DNA from: Campylobacterota bacterium
GTDB taxonomy: Bacteria > Babelota > Babeliae > Babelales > Chromulinivoraceae
Assembly (NCBI GenBank): GCA_002721975.1
Contig: PBME01000019.1
Location: forward strand, 1-46,456
Length of the DNA stretch: 46,456 nucleotides
Direction of reading: 5' to 3'
Below, one piece after another: positions 25,915 through 38,865 of the stretch (position 1 is the stretch's first letter; every line of letters starts with the position of its first letter). The notes below the pieces were generated by a model, which was not told where the DNA came from, did no database searches, and was given only the letters and a program-made list of their open reading frames with translations. Position numbers and translations under genes: made by a program.

Positions 25915-26277
25915 ATGAAATATCTACTATCTATTATGTTAGGAATCATATCAAGTATATCTATTATACAATCTGAACATATCGTTTATGAAACAAATAT
26001 AGTGCAAAATTCTATTAATATTGCTGAAGATATAGCAGGATTAGCAGTTGTTTGTAAAAAATCTAAAGATCCAGAACTCCTTAAAGAAATTATCAAAAAA
26101 TTAGTTTTAGATATTGTTAATATCACTAACAATATTATAGAAAAAAGAAAACAAAAAAAATTAGCTAAAATGAAATATATTGATGATATCGATTACATAG
26201 ATAATTCACAAGATCACGTCGACAATATTGTGAACAATATATTAAGAAAAATTGAAATCATGGAAAGTGCATTATGA
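25915..26277 (+). CDS. Small secreted helical protein coupled to the enolase-like gene
   Basis: 120 residues. AAAGGAG lies about 7 bases before the ATG. The signal peptide is MKYLLSIMLGIISSISIIQS. The mature part is short, helical and Ile/Asn/Asp/Lys-rich, with one cysteine. Its stop overlaps the ATG of the enolase-like gene by four bases (ATGA), so their translation is coupled. The coupling of an exported protein with an apparently cytoplasmic pseudo-enzyme is unusual. No family recognised. Confidence 0.75.
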   Translation: MKYLLSIMLGIISSISIIQSEHIVYETNIVQNSINIAEDIAGLAVVCKKSKDPELLKEIIKKLVLDIVNITNNIIEKRKQKKLAKMKYIDDIDYIDNSQDHVDNIVNNILRKIEIMESAL

Positions 26278-27482
26278 CAGTAAAAAAAATGTATGCAACA
26301 GAAATTTTTAATGCACAAGGATTACCAACATTACAATGCACAATTATACTTGCTAACAATCAAACTATTACGAGTTCTATTCCTTCTGGCTTTCCACAAC
26401 AATCCTTAGCAGCTCGTTACCTATATGATAAAGATGAACGTTTATTACATTATGGCATGTTGCAAGCTGTAGATTATATTAATAACACTATTGCTCCATT
26501 ATTTATTAATCAACCAATTAATGCTCTTGCAATGGATTCTCAACTTATGGATCTTGATACATCATTACACAAATCAGAAATTGGTGCTAATACAACTCTT
26601 GTGGTAAGTTACGCTTTATTTAAAGCGCAAGCTTCTTCTGAAAATATTTCTCTATATCAGTTGCTACAAAGTTTATCTGGTACTAAAGAAATTACATTAC
26701 CTACTCCAATTATCTCTGTAATAGAAACAGACAATGCAATACATGAGTTGTTACTTATTCCACAACAAGATACATTTCATCATAACATTGATGCGGCTGC
26801 AGCATTTTATCATCATGCTCAAAAAATACTTACTACAAAAAACATTTCTACCGCAGTTGGAAAATATGGATCATTTGTTCTTGATAATAATTTAACTGAT
26901 ATGTTATCACTCACTGAGGAAATATTAAAAACATTACCACAATATACATATCAAGTAGGTATTACTATTAATCATACTAATATATATGATCATGCGACTA
27001 AAACATATCACTGGAATAATAAAAATATACTATCTACTGATCTTATTAATGCTTATGAAACAATTTGTGATAACCATTCGTTTATAACATATATTCAAGA
27101 TGGCATGGGCCAACAAGATCTATTAGGATGGCAAGATCTAACTCAACGTTTAAACCATATTTCTATTGCTGCAGATACTATTTTTAGCAGTAATAGCATG
27201 CATATTAGAAAGGGAATTTTACACAACATTGGCAATCATACAATCATACGTCCTGAATATATAGGTACAATTAGCCAAACAATTGCTGCTATTGATGCAT
27301 GTAAAAAAAACAATCGTTCTTTTATTATAGCTAGTGATCAAGGTCAAACTTGTGACAGTTTTTGTATTGATTTAGTCATTGGTACAGGAGCAAGTCACAT
27401 CAAAGCTGGTGGTATAACGCGTGCAGAATTTACTTCTAAATATAATCGTGCAATAGAAATAGAAAAAAGCATACTTTCATAA
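26274..27482 (+). CDS. Enolase homologue lacking most catalytic residues (probable pseudoenzyme)
   Basis: 402 residues, co-linear with enolase from end to end (usual length ~430). Recognisable landmarks are EIFNAQGLPTLQCTI (normally REILDSRGNPTVEV), IPSG, LDTSLHKSEIGANTTLVVSY, GWQDLTQRL, YIGTISQTIAAI, IKAGGITRAEFTSKYNRAIE. The active site is largely gone. The GDEGGF motif reads GKYGSF (197-198 replace Asp-Glu). The first metal Asp is Asn233, the IED Glu is Gln275, the catalytic Lys of the KxNQIGT motif is Arg326, and SHRSGE reads SDQGQ. The GG-HADN-QEF stretch is shortened and lost. Asp301 and Lys377 remain. The frame is open and intact, so the gene is maintained. Glycolytic activity is very unlikely; a structural or binding role is inference. 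Confidence 0.85.
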   Translation: MTVKKMYATEIFNAQGLPTLQCTIILANNQTITSSIPSGFPQQSLAARYLYDKDERLLHYGMLQAVDYINNTIAPLFINQPINALAMDSQLMDLDTSLHKSEIGANTTLVVSYALFKAQASSENISLYQLLQSLSGTKEITLPTPIISVIETDNAIHELLLIPQQDTFHHNIDAAAAFYHHAQKILTTKNISTAVGKYGSFVLDNNLTDMLSLTEEILKTLPQYTYQVGITINHTNIYDHATKTYHWNNKNILSTDLINAYETICDNHSFITYIQDGMGQQDLLGWQDLTQRLNHISIAADTIFSSNSMHIRKGILHNIGNHTIIRPEYIGTISQTIAAIDACKKNNRSFIIASDQGQTCDSFCIDLVIGTGASHIKAGGITRAEFTSKYNRAIEIEKSILS

Positions 27483-27494
27483 AAGTGATTATAT

Positions 27495-30056
27495 TTATAA
27501 AACTGTTCTCGTTGTAAAAGGATTAACAGCATACTTTAATTGATCGCCAAGTTTATTCATTTCTTCTTGTTGCATCTGAGACATATGATGCTTCTTATGA
27601 GTTGCATCACTAAACCAACCTATTCCTAATGGCTCATGAGAAGAATTATGCTGTTGTACATTATCAATTCTATTATTAAAAGTTTTATCGCTAACAGGTA
27701 AGCCTTCTTTATCTGACAAGTCAGCTACTTTATGATCTATACGTACAGAACCACGATCTTCATTTTCTTGAAAGAACCAACGCGTAATTGGATCACGTAA
27801 ATTAGAAAAATTTTCTTCATAGTCTGCAAACTGCTGACTCATATAATTAGCAGATGCCTTTGTAATAGAGCCCATACCACCTTGTGTACGCGGAGCAACA
27901 ACAGTTGGTCGTAATAGTATAAATAATTGATCTTTTGTTGAATCTTTAAATCTATTAGCAGCAAAACTACCAATAATCGGTATACGTTCTAATAAAGGTA
28001 TAGATTTTTTAGATTTTGAAACATGTTCTTTTGTCAGTCCACCTAAAATAACAACATCTCCACTACGCATAGAAATATTTGTCGATAGATTTCTAGATAT
28101 TTGAGAACCAGAACCCTCATCTGCTGGATTAAGCCACAAACTCAATGCTATATTGATATCTAAATTTACTGTATCATTCGCACTGATAATAGGTGTAAAT
28201 ACTATAGAAATAGGCGCTTCTTGTTGACCAAAACTAATTGTAGGTGAAGCACTTGAACTAACACCACCTGCTAAATTTTTTACAGCTGAACTTGTTAAAC
28301 TAGCTTTTTTATTGTTAGATGCTAATATTACAGGCCGCGTTAATACTTTGGCAGATTTATGTGTTGATAATAGCTGAAAAAATGACCAAACACCGTTTTT
28401 AATTTTACTATCACTCAACATAAATACCGTCGAGTTATAAAATGTTGCTGGTGCAGTATTTGTTGAAGTTAAACTTTCTTGACCAGAGGTATATTGCTCT
28501 GAACCCCATGAGTTTGTTGCCGGATTCCACGATGATTCGTCATAGCCACCTCCGCTAGTACCATCAGTTGCTGATAAAATTCGAGATAAATCCCCTAATA
28601 AATCACGATTAGTTATATTTCCTTCGCTATCAGTTGTTTCATTAATAATATTATTGATTGTTAACCCAGCTTGCGCTTGCATATCTTTAGGAAAAATAGA
28701 AGTACATAAACCACGTGTACGCAACTGCGAACTTAAACGACGAACAAACTGTAAATCTAAATCTAAAACTAACGCTTCAACAATTACTTGTTTTTGAGGT
28801 ATATCAACTACTTTGATTAACGGTTCTAATCGACGCCAGTCTCTTTCTGGAGCTGCAATAATAATTCTGTTGCCACCACGTTGAACAGTATTACCACCAC
28901 TACCTCCATAACTATTTGAAGAACTTGAGCTACCTGTTAAACCTTGTGATACTTGTTCTTGAATTATTTTAATTTGAGGATCAAAAGCTAAATCTGAAAC
29001 AATACTTCCTGTTGACTGTCCTGTTGTTGTTCCTTGCCCTTGAATTAAATTATTAAGAACGTTAACAAAATTAGTTGCGTTTAACCATTCTAATTCTACA
29101 ACGTGATAAAAAGACTTTCCCCTTTGCAAAGGTACATCTAAATACTTTTTAATAAAATCTTTAATATGATAAACATCTTCTGACTTACCCATTAATACTA
29201 GTGAATTAACTTTGCGAGTTCCTTTGGGATCTAAATCAATAACATTTGCCAGATCAGAAAAATAGCGCGCTCGTTGAGTACCTGTTGCAAGAGAAACGTA
29301 ACCACTTGTTTTTTTATTATCTTGTCCACCCATCATGCTTGTTAAAATTTGAGCAACCTCAGAAGCTTTTGCATACTCTAGTTTAAAAATTTCAACTGCT
29401 TCTTTATAGCCAGTCTCATCAAATACTGAAAGTATATGCATCACTTCTTTCACCATTTCTGAACGTGTTGTAAATATAATAGCATTTGCATTCGGATCAA
29501 AGATCACTTTGTCATCAAAATCAGTTGTTCCTAATATATTTGTTACTAATGTTTTGATCTCTGATTGTTGCTTTGATAATTGAATTGAATGACAAAAATA
29601 CACATAACGTATTTTATCATGTGAGTCAGGCAATAGTTGATAATTCATATTAATGTATAAAGGAACTGGCTCTTTTAATGCTTTTTTATTCGCCATAATT
29701 TGATATGTATGATCATCTGTATATACCAGAGAAAATCCTGCTTGATCTAACATCATAACAATCAAATCCCAAGCCTCTGTTTTCGTTACTTGTCTGCCCG
29801 CATCAAAAGTAACCTTTGATGATATTTTATCTGTTTCTGGATATACCAAATTAATATGTTTTTGTTCAGCAAAATCATTTAAAATATCTACCAAATCAGT
29901 TTGCTCATACTTAAAATCAACTAACTGGCTTGTTGCTAAAGTATGAGATTTTTTAGCGTTATGTTGACGATCACTTTTTAAAGGTAATTCTTCTGCTTGT
30001 ATGCATAGCCCATGCAACATAGATATATATACTAAATATTGAATATATCTTTTCAT
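27495..30056 (-). CDS. Type II secretion secretin, second copy (GspD-like)
   Basis: 853 residues with a signal peptide (MKRYIQYLVYISMLHGLCIQA). The N0 domain begins near VDFKYEQTDLVDILNDFAEQ. N1-N3 repeats follow, including FKLEYAKASEVAQILTSMMG and VELEWLNATNFVNVLNNLIQ. The secretin barrel domain spans about 430-730 and has the hallmark VVILGGLTKEHVSKSKKSIP then LLERIPIIG. Secretins form multimeric outer-membrane channels for type II secretion or type IV pili. After the barrel, RDPITRWFF (754-762) matches a motif at the same place in the other secretin of this operon. Both also share LPD...RYVYF in N1, so they are ancient duplicates. Last gene of the minus-strand run. Confidence 0.92.
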   Translation of the reverse strand: MKRYIQYLVYISMLHGLCIQAEELPLKSDRQHNAKKSHTLATSQLVDFKYEQTDLVDILNDFAEQKHINLVYPETDKISSKVTFDAGRQVTKTEAWDLIVMMLDQAGFSLVYTDDHTYQIMANKKALKEPVPLYINMNYQLLPDSHDKIRYVYFCHSIQLSKQQSEIKTLVTNILGTTDFDDKVIFDPNANAIIFTTRSEMVKEVMHILSVFDETGYKEAVEIFKLEYAKASEVAQILTSMMGGQDNKKTSGYVSLATGTQRARYFSDLANVIDLDPKGTRKVNSLVLMGKSEDVYHIKDFIKKYLDVPLQRGKSFYHVVELEWLNATNFVNVLNNLIQGQGTTTGQSTGSIVSDLAFDPQIKIIQEQVSQGLTGSSSSSNSYGGSGGNTVQRGGNRIIIAAPERDWRRLEPLIKVVDIPQKQVIVEALVLDLDLQFVRRLSSQLRTRGLCTSIFPKDMQAQAGLTINNIINETTDSEGNITNRDLLGDLSRILSATDGTSGGGYDESSWNPATNSWGSEQYTSGQESLTSTNTAPATFYNSTVFMLSDSKIKNGVWSFFQLLSTHKSAKVLTRPVILASNNKKASLTSSAVKNLAGGVSSSASPTISFGQQEAPISIVFTPIISANDTVNLDINIALSLWLNPADEGSGSQISRNLSTNISMRSGDVVILGGLTKEHVSKSKKSIPLLERIPIIGSFAANRFKDSTKDQLFILLRPTVVAPRTQGGMGSITKASANYMSQQFADYEENFSNLRDPITRWFFQENEDRGSVRIDHKVADLSDKEGLPVSDKTFNNRIDNVQQHNSSHEPLGIGWFSDATHKKHHMSQMQQEEMNKLGDQLKYAVNPFTTRTVL

Positions 30057-30073
30057 AATATTGCCCTATCCCT

Positions 30074-30619
30074 CTAATCTGATTGCGGTATTAATGTAGC
30101 AATAGACATTGATACATTAATCTTTTTTGTCGTATTCATTTTGGTTATATCAACAAACTTTATATAAACACGAGGTTCATTTTCAATATCTTGCAACAAC
30201 TCACATAATTGTTTCGTTGTAATCTGAGTTAAGTTAATACTTAAGTTTTCTTCGGTATAACCATTTTCTAATTTTTGCTTTGCTATTTTATCTGTTGCAT
30301 GTTTAAAAATATTTAATTTTTGTGCAGAACTTTGAAAAAACTTTTGAATATAAAAATTTTTATCTTTTTTTAAAAGAGCATCTACCTGTGCACGTTGCTG
30401 CTCAACACCTTTAAATTTTGTTAATATTTCTTGTACTTGTTTTCTTGCGTTATTTAATTGTTGAATTTTTTCTTTTGCATCTTGTACAAGATATATATGT
30501 CGAACAATAATACCACATACAAACAATACACATATACCAACATATATAATTGTATATAATTTAAATTCTTTTTTATCTAAACCACGAATAAAATCACGAA
30601 AGGAATCAAGTATCATCAT
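30074..30619 (-). CDS. GspM/PilO-like inner-membrane assembly protein
   Basis: 181 residues. A short cytoplasmic N-terminus is followed by one membrane helix (about 22-42, YTIIYVGICVLFVCGIIV), a periplasmic coiled coil (about 48-95) and a small alpha/beta C-terminal domain. This is the layout of GspM and PilO, which pair with GspL/PilN below the secretin. AGAAGGA lies 5-6 bases before the ATG at 30619, and the gene overlaps the upstream GspL-like gene by 14 bases. Assignment rests on topology and position rather than strong motifs. It sits between a GspL-like gene and secretin 2. Confidence 0.7.
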   Translation of the reverse strand: MMILDSFRDFIRGLDKKEFKLYTIIYVGICVLFVCGIIVRHIYLVQDAKEKIQQLNNARKQVQEILTKFKGVEQQRAQVDALLKKDKNFYIQKFFQSSAQKLNIFKHATDKIAKQKLENGYTEENLSINLTQITTKQLCELLQDIENEPRVYIKFVDITKMNTTKKINVSMSIATLIPQSD

Positions 30620-32294
30620 GTTGATCCTTCTCTTTTACTTTAAATTGAATTGTAAATGCTAATTCTCGAGGTTTTTCAACTAACTGTAACAGTTCTAATT
30701 CAGCTAATTCTTCTTCAAATACCTCTAGTGCTTCAAAATCTTTTAACGTTCCAGTTAATGAAATTTTATCAGGAGCAATCATCAATTTTTTAACATCTAA
30801 ACCGATAGATTCTTTATCAATATGTACACTTAAATCTTGTAAATACTCTAAATAAGACTGTTCTGTTTGTTTAGAAAAAGAAAACCAAAGCTTATGTTCT
30901 TTTTCTAGCGTATTTTGCGCTTTACTTACAATATTTTTTAAATTTTTTTCACCCTTAAGATCAATTTTCATTGTTTTATTAACAGTAGAAATTAAATCTT
31001 TTTTAGAAACAATATAAGCAGAGTCCCAACGTTGTAATTCTGTCATACTGTGATATAAAATTCCACCTATACTTGCTATTGTTAATAACAATAGCATACT
31101 TACTTGCTTATAAAACAATATATTGTCAGATTTATGGCTAACAGCATGCAAAAAATTACTAGTATCATTGTATTTAGTAAATAAAGCAATGGATAAATTA
31201 GTTGTATCCTGTACATGTAGCTGTACATTTTTTGATGTACTAATATTTAATGACCGAAATAGAGATTCGAGAGATATCTTTTCTATAGATATATCAAAAT
31301 ATTGCTGTGCTAGTTCTTGAAATCTATATAACACACAACCTAAACCTGCAAAAATAATCTTTTGAGGCTTTTTATAATTTTGTGCAATCTGCTTTTCAAA
31401 AAAAGTTATAGTTTTACGTATATGATCAAATAAAACTAATAATTCTTGCTGTATTTCATGGTGATAAGATTCAAGGTCAGGACTATCTATTATTTGTTGA
31501 GCCACATCATAAAATGAAAGCTCTAACTTTTTACTAATTGATTGTGCTACATCTGCTATTCCATAAGGAACAACTCGAACTGCTTTTAAATATCCATTAT
31601 CAATATATAAAATTCTGGTAACATCAAATCCAACATCAATAAACATTTCTACTACTCTACTTGTTGGTGCAAATTTTTCATGTACATCTTTACTGAGCAG
31701 TTTTGTATTTATTTTTTTTGATTTCTTTATAGCAGATACATGTAATGGATACAAACCATAATAATACAATGTATATAAAGCAAACATATCGACAGTCATT
31801 GTATGTAATGCAACTCCAGCTTTTTCAAATAAAGCTATTTGCGTATTAACATCTTCTTTTAATGCTGCTGCAACAAGTATTTTTGACTGCTTTTTAGTTT
31901 CATTTTCTTCTGTAATAATAAAATCGATAACAGCCTGCTCTAAAGAAAAAGGCAAAAGACCTTCTACTTCATAAGCAACAACCATTTCTAATTTTTCTCG
32001 CCCTATAAAAGGTAATTCTAACTCTTTAAAAACGACTGACGAACTAGATAATGAAGTAACAATTTCATCATATGATCCAATTGTTGAAATAATTTTTTTA
32101 ATAGCAGTAACAATTGTTTGCGTTGTAAAATCTTTTAAAACGATTCTAATTTTATTTTTTATAACAACTTTATCTTTTGTATATACAGTCAAAATACCTT
32201 GTAATGCTAATTGCGTAATATCAATACTTAAAACTTTTCTAGTAAATACATATGAATTTCCAATTTTACTTGGAATCAAAATATCTTGTATCAT
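30606..32294 (-). CDS. GspL-like protein (PilM-like actin fold fused to PilN-like part)
   Basis: 562 residues from the ATG at 32294, chosen because GGAGG lies 6 bases upstream; a TTG just before is possible. Residues ~20-350 form the PilM/GspL actin-like cytoplasmic domain, with LSIDITQLALQG near the start, ELELPFIGREKLEMVVAYEV, EGLLPFS and MFIDVGFDVTRILYIDNG. A membrane helix lies near 400-418 (MLLLLTIASIGGILYHSM). A coiled coil and a ferredoxin-like periplasmic domain with KLMIAPDKISLTGTLKDFEA follow. In type II secretion GspL recruits the motor ATPase GspE and links it to GspM and the pseudopilus. The stop of secretin 1 overlaps the start (TGATG). Confidence 0.85.
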   Translation of the reverse strand: MIQDILIPSKIGNSYVFTRKVLSIDITQLALQGILTVYTKDKVVIKNKIRIVLKDFTTQTIVTAIKKIISTIGSYDEIVTSLSSSSVVFKELELPFIGREKLEMVVAYEVEGLLPFSLEQAVIDFIITEENETKKQSKILVAAALKEDVNTQIALFEKAGVALHTMTVDMFALYTLYYYGLYPLHVSAIKKSKKINTKLLSKDVHEKFAPTSRVVEMFIDVGFDVTRILYIDNGYLKAVRVVPYGIADVAQSISKKLELSFYDVAQQIIDSPDLESYHHEIQQELLVLFDHIRKTITFFEKQIAQNYKKPQKIIFAGLGCVLYRFQELAQQYFDISIEKISLESLFRSLNISTSKNVQLHVQDTTNLSIALFTKYNDTSNFLHAVSHKSDNILFYKQVSMLLLLTIASIGGILYHSMTELQRWDSAYIVSKKDLISTVNKTMKIDLKGEKNLKNIVSKAQNTLEKEHKLWFSFSKQTEQSYLEYLQDLSVHIDKESIGLDVKKLMIAPDKISLTGTLKDFEALEVFEEELAELELLQLVEKPRELAFTIQFKVKEKDQHDDT

Positions 32295-35071
32295 CAAGCA
32301 CCTCCTTGCTGTTGCAAGCTATTACTAATTGCATTTTTTGCATACAACGAACCTGAGTGAGATACATTAAAATCATTTTCAAAAGATATAGTTTTTGCTT
32401 CTGTAGCATTTTTACTCATTTTTTTTGATAATCGATTTTTTTTATCTTTCTTATGTTTTTTTATTTTTGTATCAGAATGATATTGTTCTTTTATGGCTTT
32501 TTGTTTTTGATGACGCTTTGCATTTCGCTCTTTACGTTTTTTGAAAGTTTCTGTTTCTTGAGCATACCCTTTTAGTTTACGTAAATTTTTCGAAGATTCT
32601 CCAAAAAATGCTTTTTGTATTGGATCACGCTTTGAAGCAAACCAATTTAATTCATCCATCATTTCAATATTTTTTTCAGCTTCTTCCATTTTGTACTGTG
32701 TATAACGATCTAATCCTTTTTTATCAACCGGATCTAATAAACGAGGTGATATAAAGATTAAGAAATGATTTTTAACAATGCTTTTTGTTTTTGATTTAAA
32801 CAACCAACCAAAAATAGGAATATGCTCTAAAAGAGGTACCCCTCTATGGGTCGATGAATAACTTTCTTGCATGATACCACCAAGAACTAACACTTCTCCA
32901 CTTGCAACTGATGCATACGTATCAATTTGTTTTTTATCCATAGCAGCACTTGTCTCACTACCAGCAACACTAAATTGATCATTTTTCACAGAGATTGTTA
33001 AATTAACAATATTATTTTTATTAATTTGTGGTGTAATAGTAAACCCTAAAGTAGAAGGCTGATCTGTAAAACTATTTACTGTTCCATTTTGAGCTATTGT
33101 TTGACCTGATATAACTCGTCTTTGTTCACCGATTGCTACTTTTGCTTGAGAATTATTTGATACTACGACAAACGGATTTGATACAACATGTGTCGAAACC
33201 ATAGATTTAAGAACCTTAAACAATGCCCAAATAGGCTTACCAAAAGTTACCAATATGCTACCAGCTTCATTAACCACCGATGAACCTAATAATCTTGCAA
33301 GCGAAGATTTAATAGAATACTCTTCATTCGCTCCAGGATTTGTTGTAATAATAGAAGTTGAACTACCAGCAGTATTTAATATTCCAGATGTTTGAGCACT
33401 AATATTTTGAGCAAAGGTTTGACTACTTCTATTATCAGCAGATCCTGAATTGGGACCACGTGGTCCACTTATTTGTGACCCTAGAACTTTTGCCTCACTA
33501 TCGTTAATTTGCACAATAAGCACTTCTAGTCCTATTTGTTTTTGAGGGATATCAAGCTCTTTAATTAAAGGAATAAGTGCTTCATAATCTTCTTTAGTAG
33601 CATTGATAATTAACGAGTTCGATTGCGATTCTGGTACAATAGTCATTTTAGAAAAATATTGTACACCATCGCGAACGCTACCTGCTTGTCCACCAGAAGT
33701 CCCAGATCCATACTGTACCACCTTATTTAACAACTGTTGTATATCTGATGCATTAGTATACTGCAATTGATACGTAAATAACGGTGGAGAATCTCGATCA
33801 ATATCAACATCTACATGCTGTTCGATAAAATCTTCTATTTTGCGTATTGCTTTATCTGAACCTAATAAAATTAATGAATTAGTTCTTTTATCTGCAAACA
33901 TTGAAACATCTTGTGGAAAATATTCTAATGATGGATCTTTTTTACCTGGAACCCATGCTCGCTGTGGCTGATTTGTTCCTGAACCAGTTGGTTTTAATGA
34001 ACGATATAACGTAATAACATCTTCAACATTTGTACGCTTCAATTTTAAAACAGATAAAGTTTCTGGCAAAATTGACTTATCAAGTTCTTGGACTATTTGC
34101 ATTAATGACTTAATATTTGAAGATCGATCTGTAAAAATCAAAGCCTTAAGCTCATTGAATACATCAAGCTTTGCTGAACCTGATTGCATTTTCAATAAAA
34201 TCGGTTGTATTTTAGTAGGATCAATATTTTTTAAAAAATAAACATAACGAACAACCATTTCATTATCAGGTAAAATATCAGGATTCAATCCTATATATGA
34301 CGGAATAGCTTCGCTATTAGCTTTTGAAAAAGCAACAATCTTATAAAAACCTTCTTGTGCCATAGGTACAACATCAAGACCAGCTATATGTAAAAAAGTA
34401 ATAAAAAGATCCCAGCTTTCTTTCTTTGTTAATATTTTATTCGTTCTAAAAGAAATTTTATGTCCTGCAAGACCTTTTATATCTTTAGCTTTTGCATCTT
34501 TTGCTTGCCCTTCAGCGCTAATAATATCTTCTGGCACAAATTTAATATTATGAATTTTTTCCATATATGAAGCAACATTAGACAAGTCTGTTTCTTCGAA
34601 ATTAAATGTTACTGATTCATGATCATCTACAAATCCATCATCTTGATATAAAACATTTTTTTCTGGTTCAACTCGAGAAGAACCTGTAGCATTATTTTCT
34701 TTTGTTTCTACATTTTTATTATTATTTTTTTCTTGATTATCAGTATCAGTTGCAACTGTTTTTACATCAGTATCATCTACGTTGTTAGAGATAGCACTTT
34801 GTTGATTGCTTTGATCTTGCTTTAACATACTGTTCGAAGATTGTTTTGCAGCCATACCAGCAAACATAGAATTTGAAGAAGATGTGTTATCTTGTTTTTC
34901 AATTATTGGCTTCGTGTTAACTGTACTGTTAATGCTAGACATAATATTATTTTTTAATTTTTTTTCTGTAGGTTTAACGTCTGAAAAATCCATGTTTATG
35001 GATGAATCAGATGTCAGACATTGCTGACTCATAAATAAAAGAAGTAAACTATACTTTACTAGTGTTTTCAT
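32294..35071 (-). CDS. gspD: Type II secretion secretin, first copy (GspD-like)
   Basis: 925 residues, longer than usual. It begins with a signal peptide (MKTLVKYSLLLLFMSQQCLTS) and a Ser/Asn/Gln-rich, probably disordered stretch to about 148. N0 spans about 153-250, N1-N3 about 268-510, and the secretin domain about 511-782, ending VLVLGGIMQESYSSTHRGVP then LLEHIPIFGWLF and IFISPRLLDP. RDPIQKAFF (815-823) lies beyond the barrel and matches the second secretin. Residues ~842-890 form a Lys/Arg-rich tail unusual for a secretin. It follows the gspC-like gene, the order seen in gsp operons, and is the better candidate for the canonical GspD. Confidence 0.93.
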   Translation of the reverse strand: MKTLVKYSLLLLFMSQQCLTSDSSINMDFSDVKPTEKKLKNNIMSSINSTVNTKPIIEKQDNTSSSNSMFAGMAAKQSSNSMLKQDQSNQQSAISNNVDDTDVKTVATDTDNQEKNNNKNVETKENNATGSSRVEPEKNVLYQDDGFVDDHESVTFNFEETDLSNVASYMEKIHNIKFVPEDIISAEGQAKDAKAKDIKGLAGHKISFRTNKILTKKESWDLFITFLHIAGLDVVPMAQEGFYKIVAFSKANSEAIPSYIGLNPDILPDNEMVVRYVYFLKNIDPTKIQPILLKMQSGSAKLDVFNELKALIFTDRSSNIKSLMQIVQELDKSILPETLSVLKLKRTNVEDVITLYRSLKPTGSGTNQPQRAWVPGKKDPSLEYFPQDVSMFADKRTNSLILLGSDKAIRKIEDFIEQHVDVDIDRDSPPLFTYQLQYTNASDIQQLLNKVVQYGSGTSGGQAGSVRDGVQYFSKMTIVPESQSNSLIINATKEDYEALIPLIKELDIPQKQIGLEVLIVQINDSEAKVLGSQISGPRGPNSGSADNRSSQTFAQNISAQTSGILNTAGSSTSIITTNPGANEEYSIKSSLARLLGSSVVNEAGSILVTFGKPIWALFKVLKSMVSTHVVSNPFVVVSNNSQAKVAIGEQRRVISGQTIAQNGTVNSFTDQPSTLGFTITPQINKNNIVNLTISVKNDQFSVAGSETSAAMDKKQIDTYASVASGEVLVLGGIMQESYSSTHRGVPLLEHIPIFGWLFKSKTKSIVKNHFLIFISPRLLDPVDKKGLDRYTQYKMEEAEKNIEMMDELNWFASKRDPIQKAFFGESSKNLRKLKGYAQETETFKKRKERNAKRHQKQKAIKEQYHSDTKIKKHKKDKKNRLSKKMSKNATEAKTISFENDFNVSHSGSLYAKNAISNSLQQQGGA

Positions 35072-35089: not shown

Positions 35090-36235
35090 TTATTGTCTTT
35101 TAGATATATATCCATTTGACAATATGTTTTTTTTACGAGCTTCTATTAATTTTCTTTGTTCATCCATTTGTATTTGATGAGCAGTAGGAGCTAGCTTAAC
35201 TCTTTGTTCTAATATTTTCTTTTTATACTCTTGATCATCAAGTGATATTTTTCCTTGTGGTCCTTGTTGTGTATTATTCTTTGTTTGATTCTGATGCATT
35301 TTATCATGGTCGCTTAACACAAATTGCATCTCAACCATATCTCCTGATCGATTAACTTTTACTTCAATTTGATCACCTATTTTTTTAGTAATAACGTGAT
35401 CATATATTTTTACGCGACTATCTAAGTCTGTCAATTTTATACCATCTACCTGCACAATAATATCATCACTGCTAAAACCAAGCTTACTACCCAGGCTATT
35501 TTTTACTGTTCTACCAACACGACAACCGATACTTTTTCCTTTTTTATATACTGTTGTCAAATCAAGCATATCAATAAAATCTCCTAAGCTTTTGACTGCT
35601 TTTACAAATGATTCTAAAGGTATAAAATATTTATTATTTTGTGCAACTATATTAAGACTTTCTAAGCTACTTTGTTCATCATAAGCAAGATCTTTTTTCG
35701 CATCTTTATCTCTTAAGTATAAAGTTTCTTGTTGTCCATTTGATCTAACAACTATAACCCGATTCGGTAATATTTTTAAAACTTGAGCATCTTGTATCAT
35801 TTCACCAACACGATAATTTTGTTCTGATTTAGAATCTTTAAATTGCACTATTGCAACACTACGTTCAATATTATCATGTAAATAGATAACACCTTTTAAA
35901 GTCGCCTGTAAAGGAGCTATAAACACTGGCGATTTTTCTATAGGGATACTTAATGGTATTGGTGCAGGCTCTACAGGGATCGGAGGTATTTTATCATCAT
36001 TAATTCCTGGAGCAACAGTCGGTACTTCTGGAACATATGTTCCAAAAATATCGTTCACTCCATAAATTTTCTGAATATTAACATCTAGTCCCTGCTGTTT
36101 TTCTTGTAACTGAACAGCGCTTGGCTGAATAGAAAATTTGCGAGGAATTACAGTATGTAATAACAATAATGTTAATTCACTGACACATAAAATTACTAAT
36201 AATATAATATTTATCAACCACAACGGCTGTCTCAT
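35090..36235 (-). CDS. gspC: GspC-like type II secretion protein with PDZ domain
   Basis: 381 residues from the ATG at 36235, which has AAAGGGA 8 bases upstream; starts 18-21 bases earlier lie in front of that site and are less likely. Residues 5-28 are a single membrane anchor. A Pro-rich linker (about 70-100) is followed by the homology region that binds the secretin N0 domain (about 105-170, with LKGVIYLHDNIERSVAIVQF). A PDZ domain follows at about 235-320 (IGCRVGRTVKNSLGSKLGFS, DDIIVQVDGIKLTDLDSRVK). The C-terminus is charged. GspC bridges the inner-membrane platform and the secretin, and may select substrates through its PDZ domain. Its place directly before a secretin supports the call. 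Confidence 0.88.
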   Translation of the reverse strand: MRQPLWLINIILLVILCVSELTLLLLHTVIPRKFSIQPSAVQLQEKQQGLDVNIQKIYGVNDIFGTYVPEVPTVAPGINDDKIPPIPVEPAPIPLSIPIEKSPVFIAPLQATLKGVIYLHDNIERSVAIVQFKDSKSEQNYRVGEMIQDAQVLKILPNRVIVVRSNGQQETLYLRDKDAKKDLAYDEQSSLESLNIVAQNNKYFIPLESFVKAVKSLGDFIDMLDLTTVYKKGKSIGCRVGRTVKNSLGSKLGFSSDDIIVQVDGIKLTDLDSRVKIYDHVITKKIGDQIEVKVNRSGDMVEMQFVLSDHDKMHQNQTKNNTQQGPQGKISLDDQEYKKKILEQRVKLAPTAHQIQMDEQRKLIEARKKNILSNGYISKRQ

Positions 36236-36302
36236 GTAATATATCCCTTTCATCAATTATTCACAACAACCTACTCTGTTTAAAAGAACATTGTCAAGAA
36301 TC

Positions 36303-37289
36303 CTATGGAACAGGAACAGTATCTATAATTGTTTGAATAATTTGATCTGCCGTAATATCTTCAGCAATTGCTTGATACGTTAATAATAAACGATGTCTTA
36401 ACGCTGACTTAGCAATAAATTTAATATCTTCAGGAATAACAAAATGTCTTCCTTGTAAAAAAGCATAAGCTTTACAAGCTTTCACAATAGTAATAGTTGC
36501 ACGAGGCGATACACCATACTGAATAAACTCATGTAGTTTTTCTAATCCATATTTTTGAGGATCACGTGTTGCAAATACAACATCTAAAATATATTGAATT
36601 AATCTTTCATCAATATGAATTTGTTCTACCACTTTTCTTGCTGCTATAATTTCATCTTGATTTAGTACAGCTTGCACTTGAGGCTTACTTGTTAACCGAC
36701 GCAAAATTTCTTTTTCTTGTTCTAACGTAGGGTAAGAAATTAACAGTTTAAACATAAATCTATCTACCTGAGCTTCAGGTAGCTGGTATGTGCCTTCATT
36801 TTCTATCGGATTTTGTGTTGCAAACACTAAAAATGGATCTGGTAATGTATACGTTTTTGATCCAATAGTAATTTGACGTTCTTGCATTGCTTCAAGTAAA
36901 GCTGCTTGCACTTTAGCAGGAGATCGATTAATTTCATCTGCTAATACTAAATTTGCAAACAATGGTCCTTTTTTTGTTTCAAATTCATATGTTTTAGGGT
37001 TATAAACCAATGTTCCAACAATGTCTGCTGGTAACAAATCAGGAGTAAATTGTACCCTACTAAAAGAAAGACCTAACGCTTCAGAAATTGTTTTAATTAA
37101 TGTTGTTTTTGCTACACCAGGAACACCTTCTAACAAAATATGACCACTTGTTAAAATGCCAATACAGCTTAATGTGATAATCGATTCATTACCTACAATA
37201 ACTTTACTTATTTCTCTTTTTAAAATATCAAATTTAGAATTTATTTCTTTAACGCTTTGCGCAAGTTGCATAGAATTATGTGTTTCCAT
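36303..37289 (-). CDS. MoxR-family AAA+ ATPase
   Basis: 328 residues. Walker A is GVPGVAKTT (about 56-64) and Walker B LVLADEINR (about 118-126), with SPAKVQAALLEAMQERQITI behind it. The sensor segment FATQNPIENEGTYQLPEAQV then DRFMFKL and the C-terminal lid VSPRATITIVKACKAYAFLQ are all family-typical. GGAGA precedes the ATG. MoxR ATPases act as chaperones, usually beside a DUF58 protein and von Willebrand A proteins. None is present here. Instead the gene lies between mlaF and gspC in a continuous run. A role in assembling the adjacent secretion system is possible but unproven. Confidence 0.92.
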   Translation of the reverse strand: METHNSMQLAQSVKEINSKFDILKREISKVIVGNESIITLSCIGILTSGHILLEGVPGVAKTTLIKTISEALGLSFSRVQFTPDLLPADIVGTLVYNPKTYEFETKKGPLFANLVLADEINRSPAKVQAALLEAMQERQITIGSKTYTLPDPFLVFATQNPIENEGTYQLPEAQVDRFMFKLLISYPTLEQEKEILRRLTSKPQVQAVLNQDEIIAARKVVEQIHIDERLIQYILDVVFATRDPQKYGLEKLHEFIQYGVSPRATITIVKACKAYAFLQGRHFVIPEDIKFIAKSALRHRLLLTYQAIAEDITADQIIQTIIDTVPVP

Positions 37290-37303
37290 AGTATCTCCAA
37301 TAT

Positions 37304-38083
37304 TTACATTTTATTTTTATCATCAGGTATTTCTTGCTGTATAGGACCCTTGGTCAACCCTCTAATAAATTGATGTACATAAGGATCTTGTGATTCCCAA
37401 ATAGTAGATGCATCAACATCACTAATAATTTTTCCTTTATACAAAAGAGCAACTTTATCAACATACTTAAATATTTCTGTATCATGCGAAATAATAACAG
37501 TTGTTATACCCAATTTCTCTTGCATATCAGCTATTAATTCGTGAATAACTCTTGCTGTAATAGGATCTAAACCCGTTGTTGGTTCATCATATAAAATTAT
37601 CTCAGGATTGCTCATTAACGTTCGCGCTAAACCAACTCGTTTTTTCATTCCACCAGATAATTCAGATGGATATTTATCAATGACATCTTCTCGCAAATTA
37701 ACCAAAGCAAGCTTTTCAGCTACTTTTGCTCTAATTTCTGCTGGATCTTTACCCGCATCTAAATCAACAATTGCAACATTTTCAAATACTGTTAATGAAT
37801 CTAATAATGCCGCAAACTGAAACACATAACCAAATTTTTTAAAATTACTTTCACGTGCCTTACCAGTCAACGATACAATATTGACACCATCAACTATAAT
37901 TTGACCACTATTAGGAGCAATAAGCCCTATAATTTGTTTTAATAAAACTGACTTACCTTCACCAGATTGACCAATAATACAAGTAGCTTTGCCTTCTGGA
38001 ATATCAAGATTTAAACCATCAGAAATCCAACGGCCTTCATCAAAACGTTTTTTTAAATCAACTATTTTAATTTTATTCATCAT
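37304..38083 (-). CDS. mlaF: Lipid-transport ABC ATPase, MlaF type
   Basis: 259 residues. Walker A reads GQSGEGKSVLLKQIIGL (the GxSGxGKSV form typical of MlaF), with the Q-loop at FGYVFQFAALLDSLTVFENV, signature SGGMKKRVGLARTL, Walker B IILYDEPTTGLDP and the switch histidine in VIISHD. MlaF powers the MlaE permease, which moves phospholipids between inner and outer membranes. Its start overlaps the mlaE stop by one base (TAATGATG). No MlaD (MCE protein) follows, unlike most mla operons. The C-terminus is slightly extended. Family call firm. Confidence 0.93.
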   Translation of the reverse strand: MMNKIKIVDLKKRFDEGRWISDGLNLDIPEGKATCIIGQSGEGKSVLLKQIIGLIAPNSGQIIVDGVNIVSLTGKARESNFKKFGYVFQFAALLDSLTVFENVAIVDLDAGKDPAEIRAKVAEKLALVNLREDVIDKYPSELSGGMKKRVGLARTLMSNPEIILYDEPTTGLDPITARVIHELIADMQEKLGITTVIISHDTEIFKYVDKVALLYKGKIISDVDASTIWESQDPYVHQFIRGLTKGPIQQEIPDDKNKM

Positions 38084-38865
38084 TATGTTTTTTCAAACAA
38101 CAACATAGCTAAAAAGTAGTTTGATACTAAAATGGTAATAGATGATAATACCACACTTTGAATAGTAGACAAACCAACTCCTTTTGCTCCACCACGAGTA
38201 TAATAACCACAATAAGACCCTATAGAGGTCAAAATGAAACCAAACACACTGCCTTTAATCAATCCACCTGTAATATCAGAAAGAACGAGCGTTTCTTTTA
38301 TCCCGTCGATAAATTCAACTGCATTTAGATTATGATAATATTTATAAACTAAATAACCGCCCCAAATACCACTTGTAATCGTAAACATTGTTACAAAAGG
38401 CAAAATCAAAATACCAGCAAGTACTCTTGGTACCATTAAATAACGAAATACATCTATACATAACGTTTCTAGTGCATCTACTTGTTCTGTAATTCTCATG
38501 GTACCTATTTCAGCAGCAACACTAGATCCACTTCTACCAGTAACCATAATACCGGTTAATACAGGACCAAGCTCTCGGGTTAATGCCAATGCTACAACGA
38601 GTCCAATCTTATCTTCAGATCCAAACTTTGCAAAACCATAATAGGTTTGCAAGGTTAATACTGCTCCTGAAAATATACCTATCAAAGCACAAATTGGTAA
38701 TGAATCTACACCGATTCGTTCCATTTGGGTAAATAATTTTTTAACATCTAGACGCTGAGAAAACATAACAGCAAATATTTTTGCTACAAACTGTCCATAC
38801 TCTCCAAATCTATCGCATATACGTATTGCCGATGCTCCAACAGTATTTATAAATTTAATCAGCAT
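38083..38865 (-). CDS. mlaE: Lipid-transport ABC permease, MlaE type
   Basis: 260 residues with about five membrane helices. The MlaE hallmarks are LPICALIGIFSGAVLTLQTY, RELGPVLTGIMVTGRSGSSV, AAEIGTMRITEQVDALETL and KGSVFGFILTSIGSYCGYYT then RGGAKGVG. The motif EQVDALE is diagnostic. GGAG lies 6-7 bases upstream of the ATG. It forms a lipid transporter with MlaF. It follows secG by 26 bases and belongs to the long minus-strand run. The presence of an MlaE/F pair agrees with an outer membrane. The direction of lipid movement cannot be read from sequence. Confidence 0.93.
   Translation of the reverse strand: MLIKFINTVGASAIRICDRFGEYGQFVAKIFAVMFSQRLDVKKLFTQMERIGVDSLPICALIGIFSGAVLTLQTYYGFAKFGSEDKIGLVVALALTRELGPVLTGIMVTGRSGSSVAAEIGTMRITEQVDALETLCIDVFRYLMVPRVLAGILILPFVTMFTITSGIWGGYLVYKYYHNLNAVEFIDGIKETLVLSDITGGLIKGSVFGFILTSIGSYCGYYTRGGAKGVGLSTIQSVVLSSITILVSNYFLAMLLFEKT

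Follow-up and report, generated by a model that had tools for sequence, protein, structure and literature searches.

Two paralogous GspD-type secretins share a type II secretion operon in Candidatus Dependentiae

We analysed a window of 46,456 nucleotides (contig PBME01000019.1, assembly GCA_002721975.1) from a genome of the phylum Candidatus Dependentiae. The assembly (G000) amounts to 979 kb and is 91.6% complete. On the minus strand, to which all gene coordinates below refer unless stated otherwise, the window carries genes in the order mlaE-mlaF-moxR-gspC-D1-gspL-gspM-D2, with intergenic spacings of at most 46 nt and overlaps between several genes. The run begins with three conserved neighbours, recognised by profile matches and by comparison with relatives: a MlaE permease (38083..38865), a MlaF-like ABC ATPase (37304..38083) and a MoxR-type AAA ATPase (36303..37289). 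They are followed by a GspC-like gene (35090..36256), the sole copy in the genome, encoding a T2SSC domain (31.9 bits, passing the cut-off of 27) and a PDZ domain. The two secretins, D1 (32294..35071, 925 aa) and D2 (27495..30056, 853 aa), are both complete, as originally predicted; ORF coordinates and lengths were verified, and Pfam and AlphaFold2 agreed. A GspL/PilM-like inner-membrane protein (30606..32297) overlaps D1 by 4 nt; it matched PilM_2 above cut-off (9e-18) and scored 18.8 with T2SSL against a cut-off of 25.5. A GspM-like protein (30074..30619; T2SSM 25.3 bits, slightly below the cut-off of 27.8) overlaps GspL by 14 nt, and D2 starts 17 nt downstream of it. Both genes had been predicted to flank the secretins; they are present but located between them. 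D2 is the final gene of the run and reaches a convergent enolase gene (26274-27482), the product of which is divergent (231.6 bits against an NCBIfam cut-off of 300).

The Pfam Secretin domain was above cut-off in both proteins (4.4e-34 in D1 and 1.9e-25 in D2); Secretin_N matched three stretches of D1 and two of D2, and the GspD N0 domain was sub-threshold in each. AlphaFold2 models based on phylum alignments revealed N0, N1, N2, N3 and a beta-domain in D1 and D2 alike, the architecture that had been proposed from the sequence. Domain blocks were mostly modelled with a pLDDT of about 80-93, low confidence being found chiefly in linkers, insertions and tails; since the pTM of the single-chain models was low, the domain order alone was taken from them. 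In D1, the N0-N3 periplasmic domains cover aa 157-506 (33554..34603), with a helical insertion in N0 at about aa 181-197, and the beta-domain covers aa 512-779 (32735..33538). In D2, N0-N3 cover aa 45-417 (28806..29924), with a Ser/Gly-rich insertion in N3, and the beta-domain covers aa 423-720 (27897..28790) and retains the secretin signature (Gly672-673, Pro687 and Pro693 invariant). Both N-termini display positive charges followed by a hydrophobic helix, which is consistent with a signal peptide. A PDB fold search returned Klebsiella PulD (6hcg) as the top match for D1 and for D2.

D1 and D2 are 25% identical across 824 aligned columns (E 3e-69). GspD was the best-scoring subfamily model of both, with 271 and 211 bits against an NCBIfam equivalog cut-off of 351 that neither reached; we therefore call them GspD-type rather than GspD equivalogs. 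The PilQ model gave 164 and 98 bits (cut-off 284, not reached), and a PilQ or type III identity was rejected for either copy because these scores were lower than those with GspD. The combination of one PilQ with one GspD, which the original prediction had set against a duplication, was thus absent. We also rejected the idea that D2 is a pseudogene, as ORFs were intact almost everywhere among Dependentiae regions. The only broken copies, perhaps assembly errors, were D2 at locus L067 and D1 at L068, L189 and L215.

Within the window genome, a profile search found D1 and D2 as the only secretins, together with single copies of the full T2SSE ATPase, PilM/GspL and GspC, one T2SSF protein with both its domains and one pseudopilin operon behind gspF. 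GspE passed its own cut-off (TIGR02533, 654.9 bits against 630.25) and fell below that of PilB (634.2 against 675.65). The best models were GspF for the platform protein (327.5, curated cut-off 424) and GspG for the major pseudopilin (75, curated cut-off 88.85). The canonical operon of E. coli K-12 has E to K between D and L; in the window genome C-D1-L-M-D2 are grouped, and E and F-to-K are located elsewhere. No prepilin peptidase (PF01478) was detected in this 91.6% complete assembly, and exactly one was present in each of the 25 other Dependentiae genomes sampled; its absence is probably an assembly gap, and at this completeness more machine parts could have been missed. Since the two secretins have no others beside them and the genome encodes a single GspC, GspE, GspF, GspL and pseudopilin operon, D1 and D2 most likely both serve one type II secretion system (T2SS).

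Secretins were present in 96 of 101 Dependentiae genomes. We inspected the operon region in 95 genomes, the window genome included. By our count, both secretins occurred as C-D1-L-M-D2 in 87 (split across contigs in 4 of them, and with gspC sometimes past the contig end), and in the remaining 8 the contig stopped within or beside gspL. No intact region among the 95 genomes had lost D1 or D2 singly, so that relatives keep both copies wherever the contig allows, a point on which the original prediction had asked for a check. Five genomes contained no secretin (G017, G087, G008, G073 and G078). Two of these, G017 and G087, are 96-97% complete and keep GspE, and it is possible that they lost the whole C-D1-L-M-D2 block. 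Additional copies were found as well: four genomes of family f2 have an additional D2, and in G041 each of the two secretins is present twice (tandem loci L044, L048, L191, L218 and L058). Several Dependentiae families also encode, elsewhere in the genome, a third, PilQ-like secretin of about 450-620 aa that forms its own clade (L003-L010, L012, L013, L015-L018, L020-L022, L024, L027 and L028). Outside the phylum, none of 77 GspD loci had a second secretin within the sequence at each locus, which extended at least 5 kb either side in 51 of them. A genome collection was scanned with a 9-row D1 alignment, and plasmid searches recovered outgroup secretins alone.

In a 98-row tree, D1 and D2 formed a single clade (SH-aLRT 100) separate from 34 other GspDs, from HofQ of E. 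coli and from the PilQ-like protein that is the third secretin of some Dependentiae. In agreement with this, the D1 profile scored typical D2 proteins at about 500-575 bits, against 230-360 for outgroup GspDs. The two motifs noted at the outset were recovered in both copies: LPD...RYVYF at D1 267-279 and D2 142-154, and RDPI at D1 815 and D2 754. Nineteen alignment columns hold a residue common to most D1 and D2 and rare among 82 outgroup GspDs, among them Arg275/Tyr276, which are part of RYVYF, and an Arg located three positions past the gate hinge. A C-terminal DP[ILV]xxxFF motif (DPIxxxFF at aa 816-823 of D1, 32603..32626; DPIxRWFF at aa 755-762 of D2, 27771..27794) was found in 41/56 D1, 45/56 D2 and 0/82 outgroup GspDs. 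The common clade and these derived residues uphold the predicted duplication within the lineage; its age is greater than that wording implied, as it predates the radiation of the phylum as sampled. The free tree placed the D2s of families f5, f12, f15, f16 and f18 beside D1. This paraphyly was unsupported, because constraining D2 to be monophyletic raised the likelihood by 15.6 over the free tree (p-AU 0.73, 68-row version). With the constrained tree scoring higher, the best account of the sequences is one D1/D2 split preceding the radiation of the sampled phylum. A recent duplication or gene conversion was rejected, D1-D2 identity within a genome being only 0.8 points higher than that between genomes of the same family. 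Retention of the pair by nearly the whole phylum, from one ancient duplication, suggests that the machine normally uses two kinds of gate subunit.

The two copies have diverged, and the gate of D2 is under a looser constraint. Gly453 of V. cholerae GspD aligns to Gly648 of D1 (33128..33130), and the G453A chain differs from the wild type precisely there. Gly453 has been called a putative hinge, and the G453A substitution holds the channel partly open (PMC7545093). The glycine was invariant in D1 (56/56); the window's D2 has Ser590 at this position (28287..28289), and only 17/56 D2 proteins have glycine. Among outgroup GspDs it was found in 77 of 82, the 5 exceptions indicating that it is common in GspD and not strictly defining. 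Fifteen of the 17 glycine-bearing D2s belong to family f19, where 15/19 keep the residue, so that relaxation of the gate is not universal in D2. D2 also evolved faster, with a mean distance of 1.48 against 1.28 for D1.

Covariation was estimated as partial correlations of distance matrices at the domain level, with equal column numbers (sd about 0.06), an analysis that supersedes a whole-protein mirror-tree. The correlation with GspC was 0.36 for the N0N1 domains of D1 and 0.06 for those of D2; as the contact between D1 N0N1 and GspC is physically known, the former value works as a positive control. Between D1 and D2, it reached 0.32 for N2N3 and 0.27 for the barrel, exceeding the 0.12-0.16 found for neighbouring domains within one protein. 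A comparison of own-genome with cross-genome identity indicated too little gene conversion, if any, to account for this signal. We gave the D1-D2 values modest weight, because covariation of paralogs may reflect shared domain-specific rates rather than contact.

Of the arrangements raised by the original prediction (a mixed ring, two channels or a stack), our results slightly favour a shared complex. We hypothesize that one T2SS has two paralogous, subfunctionalised secretin subunits, which most likely belong to a single outer-membrane complex; our confidence in this reading is evenly balanced. D1 would be the canonical, GspC-docking and gated part of the channel. D2 would act as its obligate partner. 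It is probably expressed from a transcript shared with D1 and would most likely sit in the outer-membrane complex of D1, as a mixed ring or as rings of one apparatus, and not in an independent machine. More specifically, and only tentatively, the T2SS channel of the phylum could be a natural heteromeric ring of two obligate paralogs, a GspC-docking subunit with the hinge glycine and a partner with an altered gate. The main rival of a shared complex is that D1 and D2 build two separate homomeric channels on one inner-membrane platform (single GspC, L, M, E and F plus pseudopilus), used for different cargo or at different stages. We regard this as possible although somewhat doubtful. Both copies are complete secretins and D2 has all the domains for a ring of its own; the re-duplication of D2 in f2 and the doubling of both in G041 also resemble channel diversification. 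There is a precedent in Pseudomonas aeruginosa, where a second GspD likewise serves one T2SS: the alternative GspC/GspD pair XphA/XqhA (PaQa subunit) functions with the remaining Xcp parts (PMC6567927). XqhA, however, lies outside the xcp locus with its own GspC and separate regulation, whereas D2 is found phylum-wide in the same operon as D1, showing neither an alternative GspC of its own nor a separate locus. The single GspC would have to serve both channels, yet D2 N0-N1 did not covary with it; neither copy was lost singly in the 95 genomes despite genome reduction, and gating might go wrong in a ring built of D2 alone and lacking the hinge glycine, by analogy with G453A.

D2 might instead serve as an accessory ring or assembly partner that is stacked upon the D1 channel or lies next to it, and not as a channel subunit in the cell. 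Its faster evolution and the relaxed conservation of its gate hinge would fit such a role, but an accessory ring would not need the full beta-domain of the model and the secretin signature that D2 has kept, and we consider this unlikely. That the copies work in different machines, such as the T2SS for D1 and a type IV pilus for D2, was already disfavoured and is very improbable. Genes of a T2SS or of type IV pili are mentioned in papers on Babela massiliensis and Chromulinavorax destructans (PMC4378268, PMC6561590), and a PilQ-like secretin exists in some lineages. That protein nevertheless belongs to a different clade, D2 scores best with GspD and clusters with D1, and the window genome contains a single assembly ATPase, a single platform protein and a single pseudopilin operon.

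D1 and D2 resemble canonical GspDs (PulD, XcpQ and EpsD) in the order of N0-N1-N2-N3 and beta-domain and in having GspC, GspL and GspM as neighbours. They differ in being two paralogs per system, with the E and F-to-K genes elsewhere, in sharing the C-terminal DP[ILV]xxxFF motif and an Arg that replaces the VP motif of the gate loop, and, for most D2s, in the missing hinge glycine. Secretins are generally regarded as homomeric rings. PulD variants of different lengths co-assemble in vitro, mixed rings being seen as ladders (PMC4604470); these mixed multimers were made from engineered variants of one gene, whereas D1 and D2 are natural paralogs. A T2SS has been reported in B. massiliensis and JCVI TM6SC1 (PMC4378268, PMC6561590), being the only secretion system of B. 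massiliensis (PMC4378268), and C. destructans has been described as having a 'derived pulD channel' (PMC6561590). These are presumably the same system as that of the window. The available parts of both papers make no mention of a second secretin for any of the three organisms, and a survey of type IV filaments does not mention Dependentiae or TM6 (PMC6668835). We found no report of the pair in the open-access literature, the scope of our search, outside which lie most subscription papers and possibly comparative genomics of TM6.

That a phylum of parasites of eukaryotes maintains two diverged secretins in its reduced genomes implies a need for the second subunit. The pair offers a natural test of heteromeric secretin rings and of the gate-hinge mechanism. 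The T2SS is also a likely export route for the many signal-peptide-bearing proteins reported for C. destructans (PMC6561590). Beside gspE and a TamB-like gene (L099 4282-5448), two neighbouring short secreted proteins were named phospholipase-D-like by eye from their translations. Lipid transport genes were repeatedly linked with T2SS genes: MlaE-MlaF-MoxR lies directly upstream of them at gspC in many Dependentiae (36303-38865 in the window), and a MlaD-like gene adjoins the gspF-pseudopilin operon (L100 4071-5651).
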